30,371 nucleotides of DNA from a virus. Numbering within the stretch: the first letter of the stretch is position 1; each line of letters starts with the position of its first letter. Below are positions 23,998-29,857 of this stretch, piece after piece. Position numbers and translations under genes: made by a program. The notes under the pieces were generated by a model that did not search any database, was not told the origin of the DNA, and saw only the letters and a program-made list of their open reading frames with translations. Location: positions 1 through 30,371 of IMG/VR virus record IMGVR_UViG_3300021964_000319. One strand, written 5' to 3'.

Positions 23998-25731
23998 TTA
24001 GCTAGCAACGTCAAGGCAGACGACCACACCGTACATGTCGGGGCGAACCATCTTCTTGCCGTAGCGTGTCATCACACCCTTACGTGGCACGAAGTCCTCT
24101 GTACCAAAGATGGTAGGAGTGACCTGTAGTGGAACGTAAGGAGCGTAGACGTAACCACTCTCTAGGAAGCTGTTGCCACGGCGACCAACTAGCACGATTT
24201 GACGTGGGAAGTATGGGTCGACGTAAACGTCTAGCTTCTTGGAGATGCTACCAACATTTACAGCACCGGCTGTGCCATTGGCGTCAACGGTAACGTTGGC
24301 GCGGAAGCCAGCAGTGAACTCTAGAATGTTAGCAACTTCTGGTGAGCAAACGATGAAGTTTGCACCGCCGCGAACGGTCTTACGGTGAATCTCTGCGGAC
24401 ACATCGTTGATGGTCTCTAGAAGAGTCTCGTACCATTCGCTAACCGTACCTGTGAAGTCAGGAGCACCAGATGCACCAATTTCGTTACCAGTTGTGCGGT
24501 TAACAAACTTGCCTGGGCGGCGTGACCAGTAACGAACGTTGCCTTTTGCACCTTGGATGAGGTCGTTCAAGATTTCTTGATCGATCTCTAGAGCAATCTG
24601 CTCAGAAAGGATGCTTGTAAGCTCAACCTCGGCGTCGAGGTTGTGGTAGGCGTTGAGGTCTTGACCGAGTTCGGGTGACCACTTAGCCTTGAGCTTCTTG
24701 GTGTTGGCTGTGATAGCTGTGCTTTCAACCTTGATGTCAATCTCTGGAATGTTGCTTTCAGCCTCTAGACCCCATGGTGTTACACCACGGACAGCGCCAA
24801 CTGCGTCGCCAGTGTTGCCAAAAACGTCAGCGACGGCGTAGGTGAGGGCTAGTGTTCCCTTACCGGCAGCCATGGCTGTTGGTGTTACAGTACCATTGAT
24901 GTCAGCAATAACGAGCAACAGGTCATCAGCAGTACGAGTGCCAATGTAGTTTTCTGCGGCAGAACCGGAGAAGCTTGTTAGGCGGCGAACGATTCTTTGT
25001 GAACCTGTGATTGCACCGTTGCCAGCACTTCCGTAAGAAATGCTTACTAGGTTATCGTTGTTTAGGTTATCAAGACCGCTCTTGGCAATCTTAGCAACGT
25101 AAACGCTTGTTGTACCTGAAACAAAATCAGGGTCAGAGTGGCAGAGAAGGTTGTCAAACTGCTCTTGAGTTAGACCACCTAGTTCGGCTTCTGAACCTGT
25201 GCCACCGAATGTACCGGAAGCAACTGCTGTTAGTGAAACAGTAGCGCTACCTGTTGGTGAAGCATAGCCGTTGTTGAGGGCGTATGGTCCGCGCTCGGCG
25301 TTGTCACCTGTGAGGTCCATACCATTCTCAAGGCTTGAGCCTGTGACACCACCACCGTAGAGTGAGGTATCAGCGGCGTAACCTACGCGACCTGAGTTTG
25401 CGGTGAAGTCCAAGAAGAAAATGAGACCTGATGGTAGGCTCATTGGTTGGACGGAAACGAGTTCGTTGGCGATTAGCTCACCAAAGACTCTGCGGACGAT
25501 TGGGAATGCTACGGCGCTAAAGCCTTCGACATCACCAGCCGCCATTGTGGAAGCTTCACGGAGAAGTTCCTTGGCTTGGTTCTCTAAGAGACGAGCCATG
25601 TTGTTTTTTGTAACATCGTTGTTGAGACCTTCTAGAAGACCTGTACCTTCCCACTTGTTTAGTAGGGCAGCACCTTCTTTTTGGAGATCACGAGCAACAA
25701 TGCCTTCTGTTAATTTTTCTAATGCAGACAT
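23998..25731 (-). CDS. gp23: Major capsid protein precursor, T4 gp23-like
   Basis: HK97-fold shell protein of 577 residues. The N-terminal propeptide contains LLNKWEGTGLLEG and ARLLENQAKELLRE, closely parallel to T4 gp23, and a gp21-type cleavage site LLRE|A at E59/A60, followed by GFSAVAFPIVRRVFGELIANELVSVQPM, the equivalent of the gp23 segment ending in VQPM. Cleavage would leave a shell protein of about 518 residues, close to mature gp23. ATG 25731 has AAGGAGG upstream. It follows the scaffold gene by 13 bases without its own late element and is closed by a strong terminator. Confidence 0.94.
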   Translation of the reverse strand: MSALEKLTEGIVARDLQKEGAALLNKWEGTGLLEGLNNDVTKNNMARLLENQAKELLREASTMAAGDVEGFSAVAFPIVRRVFGELIANELVSVQPMSLPSGLIFFLDFTANSGRVGYAADTSLYGGGVTGSSLENGMDLTGDNAERGPYALNNGYASPTGSATVSLTAVASGTFGGTGSEAELGGLTQEQFDNLLCHSDPDFVSGTTSVYVAKIAKSGLDNLNNDNLVSISYGSAGNGAITGSQRIVRRLTSFSGSAAENYIGTRTADDLLLVIADINGTVTPTAMAAGKGTLALTYAVADVFGNTGDAVGAVRGVTPWGLEAESNIPEIDIKVESTAITANTKKLKAKWSPELGQDLNAYHNLDAEVELTSILSEQIALEIDQEILNDLIQGAKGNVRYWSRRPGKFVNRTTGNEIGASGAPDFTGTVSEWYETLLETINDVSAEIHRKTVRGGANFIVCSPEVANILEFTAGFRANVTVDANGTAGAVNVGSISKKLDVYVDPYFPRQIVLVGRRGNSFLESGYVYAPYVPLQVTPTIFGTEDFVPRKGVMTRYGKKMVRPDMYGVVVCLDVAS

Positions 25732-25744
25732 AGTTTTTCCTCCT

Positions 25745-26794
25745 TTATTTTTCTATTCCTGCGAGCTTACGCCAATTCTTAAACATTGGAGCTTGCTCGG
25801 TTTTAGTATCTTCTCTCTTGTGAGAGGAGACGACGAGGGAACGAGTGCGGTTTACAGCCTCAGACAGTGATTCTGGTGCTGTTCTTTCATTGGTGCTACC
25901 CACTGAATCTTTCATGGTCTCATAAACCAGTTTAGTTTCCTCAATTGTATTGGCTTTCGCCAATGACTCGACAATTTTATCTTTTTGACGAGTATTAAGT
26001 TCTTTTGAAGTTAGTGCTTGAGTTGTGTAGTAAAGTCTGGCGTTCTGAAGGTTTACTTCGGCAGCCTTTTGCTTCATCTCAATCAAAACTTCCTTTGCCT
26101 TTTCAAGTTGCTCGGAAAGCATCTTGTTTTGGTGTTGTAGTTCTTTGTTTTTCTCTTGCTCTTCATCAACTGCGGCAGCTAGTGCGGCAAGCTCGACGTT
26201 CTCAGCACGGTCACCGGCTGTGGAGCCAGCCCAACCGTTGTTGGGGTGTTGAGACTTAATGTCAACGTTGACTTCTTCTAGAAGGGCGTCGAGTTGTTCT
26301 TCTGTTAGGGCAGCGATGGCTTCATCAAGACCGTCACCCTCTTCCATCATCTCTTCCTCTTCTTCTTCCGCAGCGGGAGCGAGAAGTTCTTCTTCTCTGT
26401 CAATCATTTCTTCTGGGGAGGAAGGGTTCATTTCTGCATCAACTGCGGCGCGGAGTTCATCAAAGTCAATCTCGATTTCCTCGTCGCTGTCGTCCATCTC
26501 GCCAGAAAGAATTGCAGTTGCTGCGTCTGGGACTTGTGCCATTAGTGAGTCATCGCCAGTTGGTTCAGCAGGCTCGGCGTCCATTTCCATGTCCATAGCC
26601 ATTTCTTCACCGCCTTCGGGAGTCTCCTCCTCGGCAGCTTCTAGCTCTTCTTCTTCGTCCTGCTCAAGAAGGTTCTCTACAGCCTCTTTTAGCTCTACAG
26701 AATACTTCTCAATAAGTTCCTTTTCGGCATTGCGGAGGGCAGTTTCTTTCAACTCCTTCGCATCTGCAATTGCCTTTTCAAACAGTGATGACAT
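25745..26794 (-). CDS. Prohead core scaffold protein, gp22-like
   Basis: Internal scaffold around which the capsid assembles, later degraded by the prohead protease. The 349-residue protein has a helical start (LFEKAIADAKELKETALRNA), a very acidic region with runs of E (about 45-165), a coiled coil (about 205-255, EEQEKNKELQHQNKMLSEQL), and a conserved-looking end with LNTRQKDKIVESLAKANTIE and NWRKLAGIEK. Place between the protease genes and the capsid gene is the T4 order 21-22-23. The T4 equivalent is shorter (269 residues). A late element lies 33 bases upstream and GGGAGAAG serves as ribosome binding site. Confidence 0.87.
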   Translation of the reverse strand: MSSLFEKAIADAKELKETALRNAEKELIEKYSVELKEAVENLLEQDEEEELEAAEEETPEGGEEMAMDMEMDAEPAEPTGDDSLMAQVPDAATAILSGEMDDSDEEIEIDFDELRAAVDAEMNPSSPEEMIDREEELLAPAAEEEEEEMMEEGDGLDEAIAALTEEQLDALLEEVNVDIKSQHPNNGWAGSTAGDRAENVELAALAAAVDEEQEKNKELQHQNKMLSEQLEKAKEVLIEMKQKAAEVNLQNARLYYTTQALTSKELNTRQKDKIVESLAKANTIEETKLVYETMKDSVGSTNERTAPESLSEAVNRTRSLVVSSHKREDTKTEQAPMFKNWRKLAGIEK

Positions 26795-26855: not shown

Positions 26856-27062
26856 TTATTTAGTCTTTTGCTCGTTGGTTATCTTTCTAGCTATTTTTTT
26901 TCTGCGAAGTTTTTTTAATCTTCTTATCTTGGATGGCTTGACAAAGAATCTTCTTTCTCTTACTTCGTCTATGATGCCTTCTTTCTTTACTTTTCTTGAG
27001 AACCTTTTTATTAGTCTCTCGCCGGGTTCATTGCGGCGAGCTTCCACTTTTACGTGTGCCAT
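26856..27062 (-). CDS. rpsU: Ribosomal protein bS21, phage-encoded
   Basis: A 68-residue very basic protein that matches bS21 along its whole length: NEPGERLIKRFSRKVKKEG, then IIDEVRERRFFVKPS, then a lysine/arginine-rich helix (KIRRLKKLRRKKIARK), parallel to E. coli NEPFDVALRRFKRSCEKAG, VLAEVRRREFYEKP and its basic tail. bS21 sits on the 30S subunit near the anti-Shine-Dalgarno region and aids start-site selection; in phages it is thought to enter host ribosomes. It lies inside the head operon, between a cargo/core-type gene and the scaffold gene, with AAGAGG upstream and only one base after the previous stop. The assignment is by sequence pattern; a generic basic nucleic acid-binding protein is the less likely alternative. 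Confidence 0.85.
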   Translation of the reverse strand: MAHVKVEARRNEPGERLIKRFSRKVKKEGIIDEVRERRFFVKPSKIRRLKKLRRKKIARKITNEQKTK

Positions 27063-27063
27063 G

Positions 27064-27525
27064 TTACCTCTTTTTAGCTGTGGCTAGGGATTTCCAGTTT
27101 CTTCCCCCAAGAGCCATGATGCCTGAAATGTCCACACCAGGGTCTTTTGCACTTACACCAGACATAGGACCAGCAGCGCCAGCGCCTTCAACGGGTGCGT
27201 CCATTGGTTCGATTCCCTCAAAAATGTTTGAATACGCGCCTTCGCCTACTGCTTTTGTAAGCATTTGTCTTTTGTCGGCAAGGCGCTTCTTTTGTAGTTC
27301 TATTGCTTCTTGGTTTGTGTTTCTTTGTGGTTCTGGTGTTGGTTCTGGTTGTTTTGCTTCAACAATAACATTGCCCATACCCTTAGCCACTTCTGCTACA
27401 ACCTTTGTAAGAATGCCTTCCTCGATAATAACTTCGTGGATGCACTCTTTGATAATGGGTTTGATAAGTTTTTTTAGTTGTTCTTTCTTCATAGTTTGCT
27501 GACCATTTACAGGTTTAAATGCCAT
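27064..27525 (-). CDS. Capsid core or cargo protein with gp21-type N-terminal motif (153 aa)
   Basis: A 153-residue protein that contains the shared segment MKKEQLKKLIKPIIKECIHE about 11 residues after its start. The preferred ATG (27525) has GGAAAAGG close upstream; the internal ATG at the shared motif has no good ribosome binding site. Possible gp21-type sites are IHE|V and IIE|E. The rest is a helical stretch rich in K, Q and E, a proline-rich linker (PEPTPEPQ), and a glycine/alanine-rich end finishing in GRNWKSLATAKKR, which resembles the last residues of the scaffold (NWRKLAGIEK). A role in the prohead core is likely from context. Confidence 0.72.
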   Translation of the reverse strand: MAFKPVNGQQTMKKEQLKKLIKPIIKECIHEVIIEEGILTKVVAEVAKGMGNVIVEAKQPEPTPEPQRNTNQEAIELQKKRLADKRQMLTKAVGEGAYSNIFEGIEPMDAPVEGAGAAGPMSGVSAKDPGVDISGIMALGGRNWKSLATAKKR

Positions 27526-27725
27526 TTACAGCCTTTTCCTTTTGCTTTGGCTACTGCGGAAGCCATGCCCGCCTCAGCATACCCGCCGGGGTTAGCATAG
27601 CCATCAAATTTGGCGTCTTTGTAATCGTCATGCAAATCCTTGCACTCTGGACTTTTGTAGTCCATTTCGTTCAGCATTGCCTGAAGTTCTTCCTTTATGA
27701 TTTGTTTTAGTTGTTCTTTTTTCAT
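27507..27725 (-). CDS. Capsid-targeted small protein with shared N-terminus (72 aa)
   Basis: A 72-residue protein starting MKKEQLKQIIKEELQAMLNE, the shared motif in its standard 20-residue form, ending in LNE for cleavage before M21. The remainder is D-, K- and Y-rich with a glycine-rich segment (YANPGGYAEAG) and ends KGCKWHLNL; two cysteines (in PECKDL and KGCKW) could form a disulfide or metal site. AAAGGAGAGGG serves as ribosome binding site. It overlaps the next gene by 19 bases. The mature part is unlike any family I recognise. Confidence 0.75.
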   Translation of the reverse strand: MKKEQLKQIIKEELQAMLNEMDYKSPECKDLHDDYKDAKFDGYANPGGYAEAGMASAVAKAKGKGCKWHLNL

Positions 27726-27772
27726 AGTATGTCCCTCTCCTTTAGGGTTGGTTTTGGTTGTTCTCGCTTCAT
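27722..27772 (-). CDS. Possible 16-codon micro-ORF
   Basis: MKREQPKPTLKERDIL, opened by an ATG overlapping the previous gene's TGA and closed by a TGA overlapping the next gene's ATG, with GAGAG before it. It may only be a coupling device that carries ribosomes across the 43-base gap; there is no evidence for a functional peptide. Confidence 0.25.
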   Translation of the reverse strand: MKREQPKPTLKERDIL

Positions 27773-28221
27773 AGTTCTCTCAACCAATCGCAGCCGAGTT
27801 TTTTTGCCTCTTCCTTAATGCGTCGGTGCCTATCAATGGCAACCACGTCAGCAGGGTTTATAGCGACCGCTGAATTGGCTTCCTCGTATCGCGGCTCCAA
27901 GATGCGGCATCGTTTTGCCGCTCGTATTGCTATCGAAGGGGCGTGTTGTCGAGCGCCCATCTCGTTCACAGGTTCGCCGCTGGTGAGTAGGTAGTCTCTT
28001 GCGCTGTTGAGATAAGCAGAAGCCAAAGACACCTTCTTCATCCACCAAGAAGGAAGGTCTTGCTCTGCGCTGAAGCCTTCTAGGTGTTGTAGAATGTCTT
28101 GGCTATCCTCGATGGCGAGTTTTGCTTGACGACGGGCAGAAGATACATCTGTGTGTCCGTCTTCGTTGAGAACTGCTTTCAGTTCTTCTTTGATAAGTTT
28201 TCTCAACTGTTCTTTATTCAT
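27769..28221 (-). CDS. Capsid-targeted protein with shared N-terminus (150 aa)
   Basis: A 150-residue protein starting MNKEQLRKLIKEELKAVLNE, the shared motif ending in LNE (cleavage before D21). The mature part is helical and fairly basic: SSARRQAKLAIEDSQDILQHL, then SWWMKKVSLASAYLNSARDYLL, then ARQHAPSIAIRAAKRCRI, ending KEEAKKLGCDWLREL. This looks like a compact helical domain of about 130 residues rather than a coiled coil. Its ATG overlaps the previous TGA (ATGA) with GGAGGAG upstream. I do not recognise the domain. Confidence 0.78.
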   Translation of the reverse strand: MNKEQLRKLIKEELKAVLNEDGHTDVSSARRQAKLAIEDSQDILQHLEGFSAEQDLPSWWMKKVSLASAYLNSARDYLLTSGEPVNEMGARQHAPSIAIRAAKRCRILEPRYEEANSAVAINPADVVAIDRHRRIKEEAKKLGCDWLREL

Positions 28222-28508
28222 AGGTCAAAATCTCCTCCCAAGTAAAGAAGCCTGTCTCTCATAAGTCTGTTAGCGAGGTTCTTTAGTTCGGGTTTCATTA
28301 GGGGGTAGCCTATTGTTTTTTCCCATTTTGCGGGAATGTCTTCTTTATCAATAGAACCACCAAACATAGTCTTTACTACTTCGGCAAACTTTTTGTAATC
28401 GTCCTCGGAGACTTCTACATCTTTTAGACCAACGTTGTCAAGCATACCTTCAGTGACGACTGCTTGTATTTCTTCTTTGATTATTTCTCTTAGTTGGTTC
28501 TTGTTCAT
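28218..28508 (-). CDS. Capsid-targeted protein with shared N-terminus (96 aa)
   Basis: A 96-residue protein starting MNKNQLREIIKEEIQAVVTE, the shared motif with VTE at the cleavage position (before G21). The mature part is acidic then basic, with a segment EDDYKKFAEVVKTMFGGSID, a PAKWEKTIGYPLMKPEL stretch and a helical end NLANRLMRDRLLYLGG. GGGAG lies before the ATG. It follows the protease gene by one base. Function of the mature domain is unknown. Confidence 0.78.
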   Translation of the reverse strand: MNKNQLREIIKEEIQAVVTEGMLDNVGLKDVEVSEDDYKKFAEVVKTMFGGSIDKEDIPAKWEKTIGYPLMKPELKNLANRLMRDRLLYLGGDFDL

Positions 28509-28509
28509 T

Positions 28510-29088
28510 TTATTTTCTCCCTACAAGAATGTCGTTGAGGGCACGGTTGATTCTGTCAGCCTTACCAAAGATTTCTCTTTCCTTTGCTTCTTTCATAAGG
28601 TATGCACCGGGGGTGGATGCCTCTGAAACAAGGTCAAAGCAAATAAGTGTAAAGTCGTCCTCTACCATAGTTAGTCCGCGCTCTTGGCGAGTTGAGCCTA
28701 AACCACGGGAGGAGATACCCAGTGAGCCACCGTCCAAAACAATTTGTTGGGCGATTTTGCCTGCTGGGGTATTGAGTAGTTTTAGTGTGCCATAGACTGC
28801 ATCACCGTCCATGTGAATTTCAGTAATAAGGTGTGATGCGTTTTTTAGTTCTACGACTGATGTGTCGGGGTGGTCGAGTTCCCCGTAGGCTCTGCGCTCA
28901 CGAACTATTTTCTTGTAGTTCTCGACTTCTCTTTGGAGAGCGCGAGGTGGGTAAACTCGTAGGTTGCCATTCTTTTTGTTGGCGTGTTGAAGGAGACCTT
29001 TTAGGTAAACGAAACCATCGTCAGCACGTTTGGCTTCCGTTAGTGTTTCAAGTTGAAAGTATTCTATTAGAACTTGTTTCTTTGACAT
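28510..29088 (-). CDS. gp21: Prohead core protease, T4 gp21-like
   Basis: Serine protease that degrades the scaffold and trims head proteins during capsid maturation. In 192 residues it shows the gp21-type sites: GELDHPD with H73, SLGISSRGLGS with the nucleophile at S126 or S127, and FDLVSEAS with D152 as a possible third residue. Its own N-terminus ends in LTE|A (residues 16-19), a self-cleavage form, and the C-terminal segment KEREIFGKADRI may also be removed. AAGGGG within the preceding micro-ORF is the ribosome binding site. Its place before scaffold and capsid genes matches T4. Confidence 0.93.
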   Translation of the reverse strand: MSKKQVLIEYFQLETLTEAKRADDGFVYLKGLLQHANKKNGNLRVYPPRALQREVENYKKIVRERRAYGELDHPDTSVVELKNASHLITEIHMDGDAVYGTLKLLNTPAGKIAQQIVLDGGSLGISSRGLGSTRQERGLTMVEDDFTLICFDLVSEASTPGAYLMKEAKEREIFGKADRINRALNDILVGRK

Positions 29089-29090
29089 AG

Positions 29091-29165
29091 TTAAGACCCC
29101 TTGCAGCAGTTTGTTGGTGGGCGAAGCATCCAGTGATTATCTACCCAAATGTTTATGTTCTTCAT
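29091..29165 (-). CDS. Possible 24-codon micro-ORF before the protease gene
   Basis: An ATG overlapping the previous gene's TAA (TAATG) opens 24 codons: MKNINIWVDNHWMLRPPTNC followed by CKGS and TAA, ending two bases before the protease ATG. It fills the only 76-base gap in this stretch and would keep ribosomes moving to the protease start. The peptide has two tryptophans and a CC pair. There is no own ribosome binding site, so translation would rely on coupling. Confidence 0.35.
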   Translation of the reverse strand: MKNINIWVDNHWMLRPPTNCCKGS

Positions 29166-29365
29166 TATCGACCTTCCAGTTCGTTTGAAATTGCTTCAAG
29201 TTCTTTTACGGCGGCGTTGATGGCGGCTTCGTAGGTTTTTGACTTGGGGTCTGCGCGCTTGAGGCGGCGAATGACGCTTTGGATTCTCAGAGCAGGGCTA
29301 ACAGCTTCACTAAGAAGGTTTTGAACCTCTTCTTTAACCATTTCTTGTAGTTTTACTTTGTCCAT
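29165..29365 (-). CDS. Capsid-targeted small protein with shared N-terminus (66 aa)
   Basis: A 66-residue protein starting MDKVKLQEMVKEEVQNLLSE, the shared motif ending in LSE|A. The mature 46 residues are a basic-then-acidic helix (ALRIQSVIRRLKRADPKSKT, then AAVKELEAISNELEGR). The leader GGAGAATAAAAATAAAATGGACAAA is nearly the same as before the next paralogue, so gene and ribosome binding site were duplicated together. In position it corresponds to the small core proteins between gp20 and gp21 in T4 (gp67, gp68). Confidence 0.78.
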   Translation of the reverse strand: MDKVKLQEMVKEEVQNLLSEAVSPALRIQSVIRRLKRADPKSKTYEAAINAAVKELEAISNELEGR

Positions 29366-29372
29366 TTTATTT

Positions 29373-29570
29373 TTATTCTCCGTCCCTTAGAGCTTTTACA
29401 ATAGCTGCAAGACCTGCTGCCATCGCTCTTGCTCTTTCGTCACTGACTTTACCTTTTTCTAACTCACTAATTGTGCGGTCAATCATTGTGTATTTGTCAG
29501 AAGCTGACGCTTCGCTAAGAAGGGCTTGAACCTCTTCTTTAATCAATTCTTTTAGCTTTGTTTTGTCCAT
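29373..29570 (-). CDS. Capsid-targeted small protein with shared N-terminus (65 aa)
   Basis: A 65-residue protein starting MDKTKLKELIKEEVQALLSE, the shared motif ending in LSE|A. The mature part (about 45 residues: SASDKYTMIDRTISELEKGK and on, with an alanine-rich helix ERARAMAAGLAAIVKALRD) is a short helical protein. The start overlaps the end of the preceding gene by 19 bases. It is most similar to the 66-residue neighbour, and I infer a recent tandem duplication of the leader and N-terminus with divergent C-terminal parts. Confidence 0.78.
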   Translation of the reverse strand: MDKTKLKELIKEEVQALLSEASASDKYTMIDRTISELEKGKVSDERARAMAAGLAAIVKALRDGE

Positions 29571-29857
29571 TTTATTTTTATTCCTTCATCGTCAAATACT
29601 TGACAGAGTATGTAACTTGTACCAGAACTTAGGCATCCTAATAAAATAGGCGTTACGAAGTTTGGTTCAAATGTAAATAGTGGTGTAAAGGGGGAAATGA
29701 CGCAAAGAAAGAACCCTACCCAAAAGCCCATACACATCGGGCATTGGAAGAGTTCTCCAAGTTTTCCTTTTGCTGGTCTTATTGAATTTAGTATTGAGCC
29801 ATAGACAAGTATTTGGGTGAGCCCATAGGCTACTAAGATGAATGTTAGAAGTTCCAT
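29552..29857 (-). CDS. Small membrane protein with CPMC motif (DUF1360-like)
   Basis: A 101-residue protein with two or three membrane segments: residues 3-20 (LLTFILVAYGLTQILVYG), about 46-62 (GFWVGFFLCVISPFTPL) and about 69-85. Between the first two lies FQCPMCMGFWVG, the CPxC-x-GFW(V/T)G pattern that I know from small phage and bacterial DUF1360-type membrane proteins. Its function is unknown; holin or superinfection roles have no support here. The ATG overlaps the end of the preceding gene by one base, and it overlaps the next gene by 19 bases. Confidence 0.75.
   Translation of the reverse strand: MELLTFILVAYGLTQILVYGSILNSIRPAKGKLGELFQCPMCMGFWVGFFLCVISPFTPLFTFEPNFVTPILLGCLSSGTSYILCQVFDDEGIKIKWTKQS

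Follow-up and report, generated by a model that had tools for sequence, protein, structure and literature searches.

We have analysed a short N-terminal leader carried by six small proteins that are encoded around a gp21-type prohead protease (Peptidase_S77, hereafter S77) in a linear virus record of 30,371 bases (IMG/VR IMGVR_UViG_3300021964_000319; this whole stretch is called the window below). It probably serves as an address tag that directs proteins to the head of the virus, after which it is removed. More specifically, we are fairly confident that it is a capsid-targeting propeptide, which would load unrelated bodies into the head and be trimmed by S77, the bodies possibly being ejected afterwards. 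An earlier note on this DNA had proposed a leader of this modular kind, with the gp21-like protease encoded alongside as the enzyme that trims it, and the proposal is supported here by the co-occurrence of leader and S77, a cleavage-site signature, the match of this site to that of the major capsid protein (gp23), body swaps and a two-cargo fusion among relatives, the confinement to one S77 clade, and the presence of about 180 body clusters.

The leader comprises about 20 residues with the consensus MxKxxLxxxIKEE[LIV]xxxLxE, and is found in five open reading frames (ORFs) and in a sixth after a restart at 27492. That six small proteins at 27064-29570 have such an N-terminus in common had been noted before; the coordinates are correct, and the ORF calls and the sequence bear the observation out. 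The genes, with the protease among them, are listed here (the arrow marks a predicted cut).

29373-29570, minus strand: leader protein 1, 65 residues; leader at 29511-29570, MDKTKLKELIKEEVQALLSE↓A; predicted cut LLSE↓A after residue 20
29165-29365, minus strand: leader protein 2, 66 residues; leader at 29306-29365, MDKVKLQEMVKEEVQNLLSE↓A; predicted cut LLSE↓A
28510-29088, minus strand: gp21-type prohead protease; Peptidase_S77 (Pfam PF03420, E=1.3e-22), phrog_207 (E=1.1e-47), and position in the protease tree
28218-28508, minus strand: leader protein 3, 96 residues; leader at 28449-28508, MNKNQLREIIKEEIQAVVTE↓G; predicted cut VVTE↓G
27769-28221, minus strand: leader protein 4, 150 residues; leader at 28162-28221, MNKEQLRKLIKEELKAVLNE↓D; predicted cut VLNE↓DGH
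27507-27725, minus strand: leader protein 5, 72 residues; leader at 27666-27725, MKKEQLKQIIKEELQAMLNE↓M; predicted cut MLNE↓M
27064-27492, minus strand: leader protein 6, 142 residues; leader at 27433-27492; start moved from 27525

Pairwise, the six leaders are identical at 5-15 of 20 residues. A leader profile trained on them and on those of close relatives scores them at 46-58 bits, the best other start in the window reaching 9.9, and a strict degenerate DNA pattern, which matches two of the window genes, is expected 0.00 times in 100 shuffles. The bodies had been said to have nothing in common beyond residue 20. This holds for most pairs, which give no BLASTP match, while one weak match does exist between the proteins starting at 28221 and 27725 (E=0.002 over 46 residues). 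The sixth protein had been given 11 extra residues, but its start is very probably 27492 and not 27525, because the homologues in relatives begin at the aligned methionine (MKREQLKKLIKPIIKECIHE...). The same start, directly downstream of the protease, is found in loci L003-L008, L013-L019, L021 and L022, and a similar one in L023 and L025-L027; the residues between the two starts are thus most likely untranslated.

We now turn to the end of the leader. Since the search pattern itself demanded a glutamate at residue 20, the site was assessed on 67 leaders from the same loci that had not been selected for it. In 41 of these, [ILVM]xE occurs with the glutamate at residues 17-24, compared to 20.3±3.5 in shuffles and to 7 and 11 in two downstream windows. 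The residue after the glutamate in the pattern leaders is glycine, alanine or serine in 61 of about 140 cases (31.7 expected); G, A, S, N and Q are all enriched at this P1' position, proline is never found there (8.4 expected) and leucine once (10.7 expected). The gp23 maturation sites of the clade, aligned before FPIVRR, read LLRE↓A, LLKE↓A, LINE↓A, IVSE↓A and LISE↓A, that of the window gp23 being predicted as LLRE↓A at residue 59 and kept in relatives. The protease N-termini of the clade bear LLTE or similar, and the window protease has a propeptide-like site of its own, TLTE↓A, at residue 18. Taken together, the signature and these matching sites make the V-L-x-E end of the leader the expected site of the S77 protease of this clade. 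Within the window, L-x-E or I-x-E occupies residues 18-20 in five of the six genes, and the gene starting at 28508 has VTE. We have also considered a cut at I-K-E within the helix, after Glu12, which was rejected in favour of residue 20 because P1' would there always be glutamate, unlike the gp23 sites, where it is A, V, S or Q.

The leader is associated with S77. The leader pattern is blind to other genes, and the 26 control virus records were fetched with a scrambled version of it. Of 39 long leader records, 28 have an S77 gene, as do 4 of the 26 controls (Fisher p=1e-5); gp23 is encoded in 23 of the 39, and the leader profile has no match in the controls. All 114 leader matches tallied in S77 records lie on the protease strand; 21 are at most 2 kb away from the protease, where 6.3 would be expected, and 64 at most 15 kb away, where 42 would be. 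In the protease tree, 27 leader records, the window, Flavobacterium phage immuto, Microcystis phage Mel-JY01 and the uncultured huge phage LR756508 fall in one clade, which also holds L031 and L033, while T4, S-SM1, S-H34, Melnitz, RM378 and all four control proteases lie outside; this is a quick FastTree whose supports were not examined, and its deep branches are tentative. The leader thus appears restricted to a large, mostly uncultured clade of T4-like phages that does not include T4, the cyanophages or Melnitz. The search among phages without a gp21-type protease, which the earlier note had called for, gave no counter-example. In the 11 leader records that lack S77, gp23 is missing too, and one of them encodes a T4 portal. 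An HK97-type prohead protease (Peptidase_S78) was found in none of 15 leader records tested, so those 11 are probably mostly fragments from outside the head region.

It had likewise been suggested that the motif be sought in related phage genomes, and at least 119 IMG/VR stretches match the pattern ATG..L..IIKEE[LIV]...[hydrophobic].E, translating as MKITKSQLKQIIKEELEAVLxE followed by anything. In 257 Gb of bacterial and archaeal contigs, the same pattern has 8 matches, of which two are out of frame. With a relaxed pattern over all loci, 227 leader proteins were collected, which fall by body into 180 BLASTP clusters, that is, bodies unrelated in sequence. Their median length is 120 residues, a transmembrane-like stretch is found in 3 of 218, and of 100 neighbouring gene pairs 53 lie within 60 nt, with 22 overlapping by 4 nt. 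Scans of 147 representatives with Pfam, PHROGs and PADLOC matched almost nothing; only four Pfam families appear at 1e-3, one of them a P-loop kinase (PF13671, E=5.5e-13). For the window leader proteins there is no significant family match in Pfam and PHROGs searches, and the bodies of genes 27769 and 27067-27492 have no match among isolate phages. An assignment of the L058 protein as an ADP-ribosyltransferase was a guess that was not supported on checking. A first degenerate DNA pattern had the wrong spacing and found nothing, and tblastn with the leaders alone against isolate phages gave one weak match and then none, the method being too insensitive for this purpose.

Comparison of the 48 loci of protease relatives shows that the leader genes recur in close relatives but are subject to turnover. 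In L003-L007, a single gene stands where the window has two; it keeps the upstream region and body of gene 1, and its leader resembles both, the L003 homologue of leader protein 1 being chimeric. In L009, the 28508 leader stands on another body that is fused to the DGHTDV body of gene 27769, and the second leader is reduced to ..GELNE↓DGH.., so that only the LNE↓D site survives; this two-cargo fusion is known from one contig, for which an assembly error cannot be fully excluded. The body family of leader protein 4, DGHxDVxSARRQ, recurs behind other leaders, as in L115, where a DGHxDVSSA body follows a different leader, one residue shorter, and identity begins at E↓DGH. Judged from these alignments, leader and body are exchanged as modules, and new bodies are thus recruited behind a constant tag. 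The AlphaFold2 model of leader protein 4 has a helix at residues 3-20, within the leader, and a low-confidence break at 20-23; with a mean pLDDT of 65 it is too weak for a fold search.

The mechanism that we propose starts with the leader of 20-22 residues, which as an amphipathic helix would dock the protein on the gp22-like scaffold core of the prohead. S77 would then cut after [VL]-L-x-E at about residue 20, the motif where gp23 also matures, and the freed small body would stay in the head among the DNA. It may then be ejected and serve the phage in the host, as an early effector or anti-defence protein. While packaging and cleavage are inferred, injection and a host-directed function are less certain.

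A number of observations weigh against this mechanism and have to be considered together with the alternatives. The glutamate that the earlier note had placed at residue 20 is there in the window but not universally among relatives: it is exactly at 20 in 28 of 80 unbiased leaders, the site drifting by a few residues, and 26 of the 67 unselected leaders lack any [ILVM]xE at 17-24. Half of the P1' residues in the window (D, M and V) are outside the preferred A, G and S. Furthermore, S77 is absent from 11 of the 39 leader records, fragment-like as these are, there are leader clusters in linear contigs at a distance of tens of kb from the protease, and a virion proteome was not found for any phage shown to carry the leader. 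The missing sites would fit a leader that is never cut and serves as a docking helix to the scaffold or another head part, the proteins being permanent minor head or core proteins, and the helix part (L6, IIKEE) is indeed the best conserved. This option has a small chance of being correct; it does not account for the L-x-E enrichment, the P1' bias without proline, the match to the gp23 site, the body boundary at the site, or the LNE↓D kept in L009 despite the loss of the second leader.

Another option, which we consider improbable but somewhat less easily set aside, is a sacrificial role as in T4 gp67 and gp68: the leader proteins would be parts of the scaffold or core that are degraded and lost before the DNA is packaged, and hence neither cargo nor delivered. 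The leader genes do sit in the head module, and the most conserved of them, 27064-27492, is the constant neighbour of the protease in relatives, for which reason a sacrificial role may well hold for this one gene. However, some 180 unrelated bodies, a P-loop kinase included, and their fast turnover fit poorly with an assembly role, and one body family is also found in a cyanophage, in a protein that carries the annotation 'virion protein'. A cassette at the DNA level, whose start region would ease gene shuffling or translation, was considered as well, as was a tag for regulation or degradation that would have nothing to do with the head. Genes 1 and 2 have an upstream AATAAAAATAAAATGGACAAA in common, and their leader DNA is 85% identical compared to 43% for the bodies. 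The invariant Leu6 is nevertheless encoded by all six leucine codons, which points to selection on the protein, and the other invariant positions also use many codons; with the association to S77 and to one head-gene clade in addition, this explanation is very unlikely. That the leaders are chance or convergent amphipathic helices can practically be dismissed: although helices rich in Lys, Glu and Leu are common in AT-rich phages, the pattern is expected 0.00 times in shuffles, has 8 matches in 257 Gb of cellular DNA, and the profile is silent in the 26 control records.

Propeptide-addressed head cargo is already known from T4, whose gp21 cuts at L-x-E or I-x-E (PMC9026906) and whose Ip1-3 have only a packaging leader in common (PMC12373910, PMC3012670, PMC9026906), with bodies that are packaged and injected (PMC9026906, PMC3012670, PMC12373910). 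The capsid targeting sequence (CTS) of IPI-IPIII and Alt in T4 and the T-even phages is similarly an N-terminal propeptide ahead of unrelated small bodies, ending in an (I/L)-x-E S77 site, and these bodies are also modular and highly diverse (PMC9026906, PMC3012670, PMC12373910). The present system has the same elements, namely a leader shared by unrelated bodies, an (I/L)-x-E end, and S77, gp23 and a scaffold assigned by position. The likeness to the T4 CTS that had been claimed would thus extend to the way of working, but it does not extend to the sequence: the IPIII leader (MKTYQEFIAE↓A) is shorter and unrelated, the leader profile has no match in T4 66-112 kb, and the T4-CTS pattern was not found in the searched stretches of immuto, Mel-JY01, RM378 and LR756508. 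The leader would accordingly be a functional counterpart of the CTS rather than a member of that family by descent. The scale also differs, the present genomes having several leader genes in tandem, and some 180 body clusters in all, compared to three internal proteins in T4 and at least 10 reported in T-evens; moreover, the T4 bodies are packaged, whereas packaging of the present proteins is predicted.

In the giant phages SPN3US and phiKZ, a gp21-related protease removes N-terminal propeptides of head and ejection proteins after a Glu motif (PMC10052503, PMC5694885, PMC9026906). The parts of these sources that were available report no short leader of the present sequence on many small unrelated proteins, and the capsid genes of the leader phages are instead of the T4 type (gp23/gp20/S77). 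A cyanophage protein, S-SM1_115 or T4-GC119, shares the module ACYxKVKSRY..WPSAYASGALVKCRK (phrog_727) with leader proteins in L127, L131 and L162, but lacks the IKEE leader and is one long protein, encoded between gp16 and gp17, instead of many small tagged ones. Its modules are parted by junctions of the VLE↓G and IQE↓G type. The S-SCSM1 homologue is annotated 'virion protein', and the virion of this phage was analysed by mass spectrometry (PMC9602691); for the leader bodies, the annotation is supportive only. No claim of a T4-type CTS in cyanophages is made, because the pattern was not found in the searched stretches of S-SM1. Immuto, Mel-JY01 and LR756508 belong to the same S77 clade and have a similar gene order. 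In LR756508, the protease has leader-like genes on either side, about a dozen altogether, while in immuto (with MKKSQLRQIIKEALDAS...) and Mel-JY01 the leaders are few or degenerate; we found no report naming them as leaders.

Whether the whole, mostly uncultured clade runs an open-ended delivery system, in which small proteins from a large repertoire with fast turnover are packaged, trimmed and injected by virtue of one interchangeable leader, is in our judgement evenly balanced. This repertoire would comprise about 180 sequence families, most of them without a known relative. If correct, a 20-residue rule predicts, for these widespread phages, which of the many nameless small genes have products that are carried in the virion, so that injected effectors could be read from metagenomes by their first 20 residues. 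Candidates for injected effectors and anti-defence proteins could then be listed at once, and there would be a tag to test for the packaging of foreign proteins in phage heads. The concept of internal proteins, known in T4 and the T-even phages from a few genes, would also be widened to a large clade whose leader is different. The leader strings were not found by text search of the literature, nor were the leader sequence, the clade, the scale or the use as a predictor found in the literature searched, most subscription journals and preprints being outside its coverage.

The remaining head genes belong to the same T4-like structural module on the minus strand, in which the six leader genes flank the S77 protease, the gp22-like scaffold and gp23.

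26856-27062, minus strand: ribosomal protein bS21, a context gene without leader (PF01165, E=7e-14)
25745-26794, minus strand: acidic gp22-like prohead scaffold, assigned by its position between the core genes and gp23 in comparison with immuto and Mel-JY01
23998-25731, minus strand: major capsid protein gp23 (PF07068, E=1.8e-73)

The order is the same in Mel-JY01 (protease, small core gene, bS21, scaffold-like gene, gp23). The scaffold candidate has no database match; it is the expected docking partner of the leaders. Gene 27064-27492, conserved between protease and scaffold in relatives, encodes a probable ancestral head-core protein, and one can speculate that it may be a true core protein and the source of the leader. 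The bS21 gene sits amid the head genes on their strand; in Bacteroidetes phages, a related arrangement has been described in which bS21 lies on the other strand (PMC9723584).

Some further observations concern the surroundings of the leader genes. The protein encoded at 29552-29857, overlapping the start of leader gene 1, is small and hydrophobic, and has a CPMC motif as well as probable membrane stretches. Between leader gene 2 and the protease there is a short ORF of 24 codons (MKNINIWVDNHWMLRPPTNCCKGS; 29090-29164, minus strand). The proteins L127:1648-2274, L131:6461-7027 and L162:217-753 have the leader, then long Lys/Arg-rich runs and then the phrog_727 module, and are likely DNA-binding cargo. 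The cyanophage T4-GC119 protein (L229:11023-12510 of S-SM1; also L228, L230 and L231) resembles a string of small basic modules with (V/I/L)xE↓G junctions, and is possibly a cargo polyprotein for the prohead protease. Upstream of the protease in three distant phages (L213:18356-18577, L214:20492-21028, L217:13398-13910), a TGxVxGYxT(P)xAF body follows a leader-like N-terminus ending near L-x-E or M-x-E, and could possibly represent an ancestral tagged core protein. Finally, the prohead protease itself is interrupted by an in-frame intein-like insert in L280:229-2148 (IMGVR_UViG_3300025018_000180) and L217:16480-18204 (LR756508). The insert starts with Cys, has a LAGLIDADG-like block and ends with TGN before Ser, in both cases at HPD↓SSVV (the arrow here marking the insertion point) beside the catalytic His region; a self-splicing element within a head protease would be unusual.

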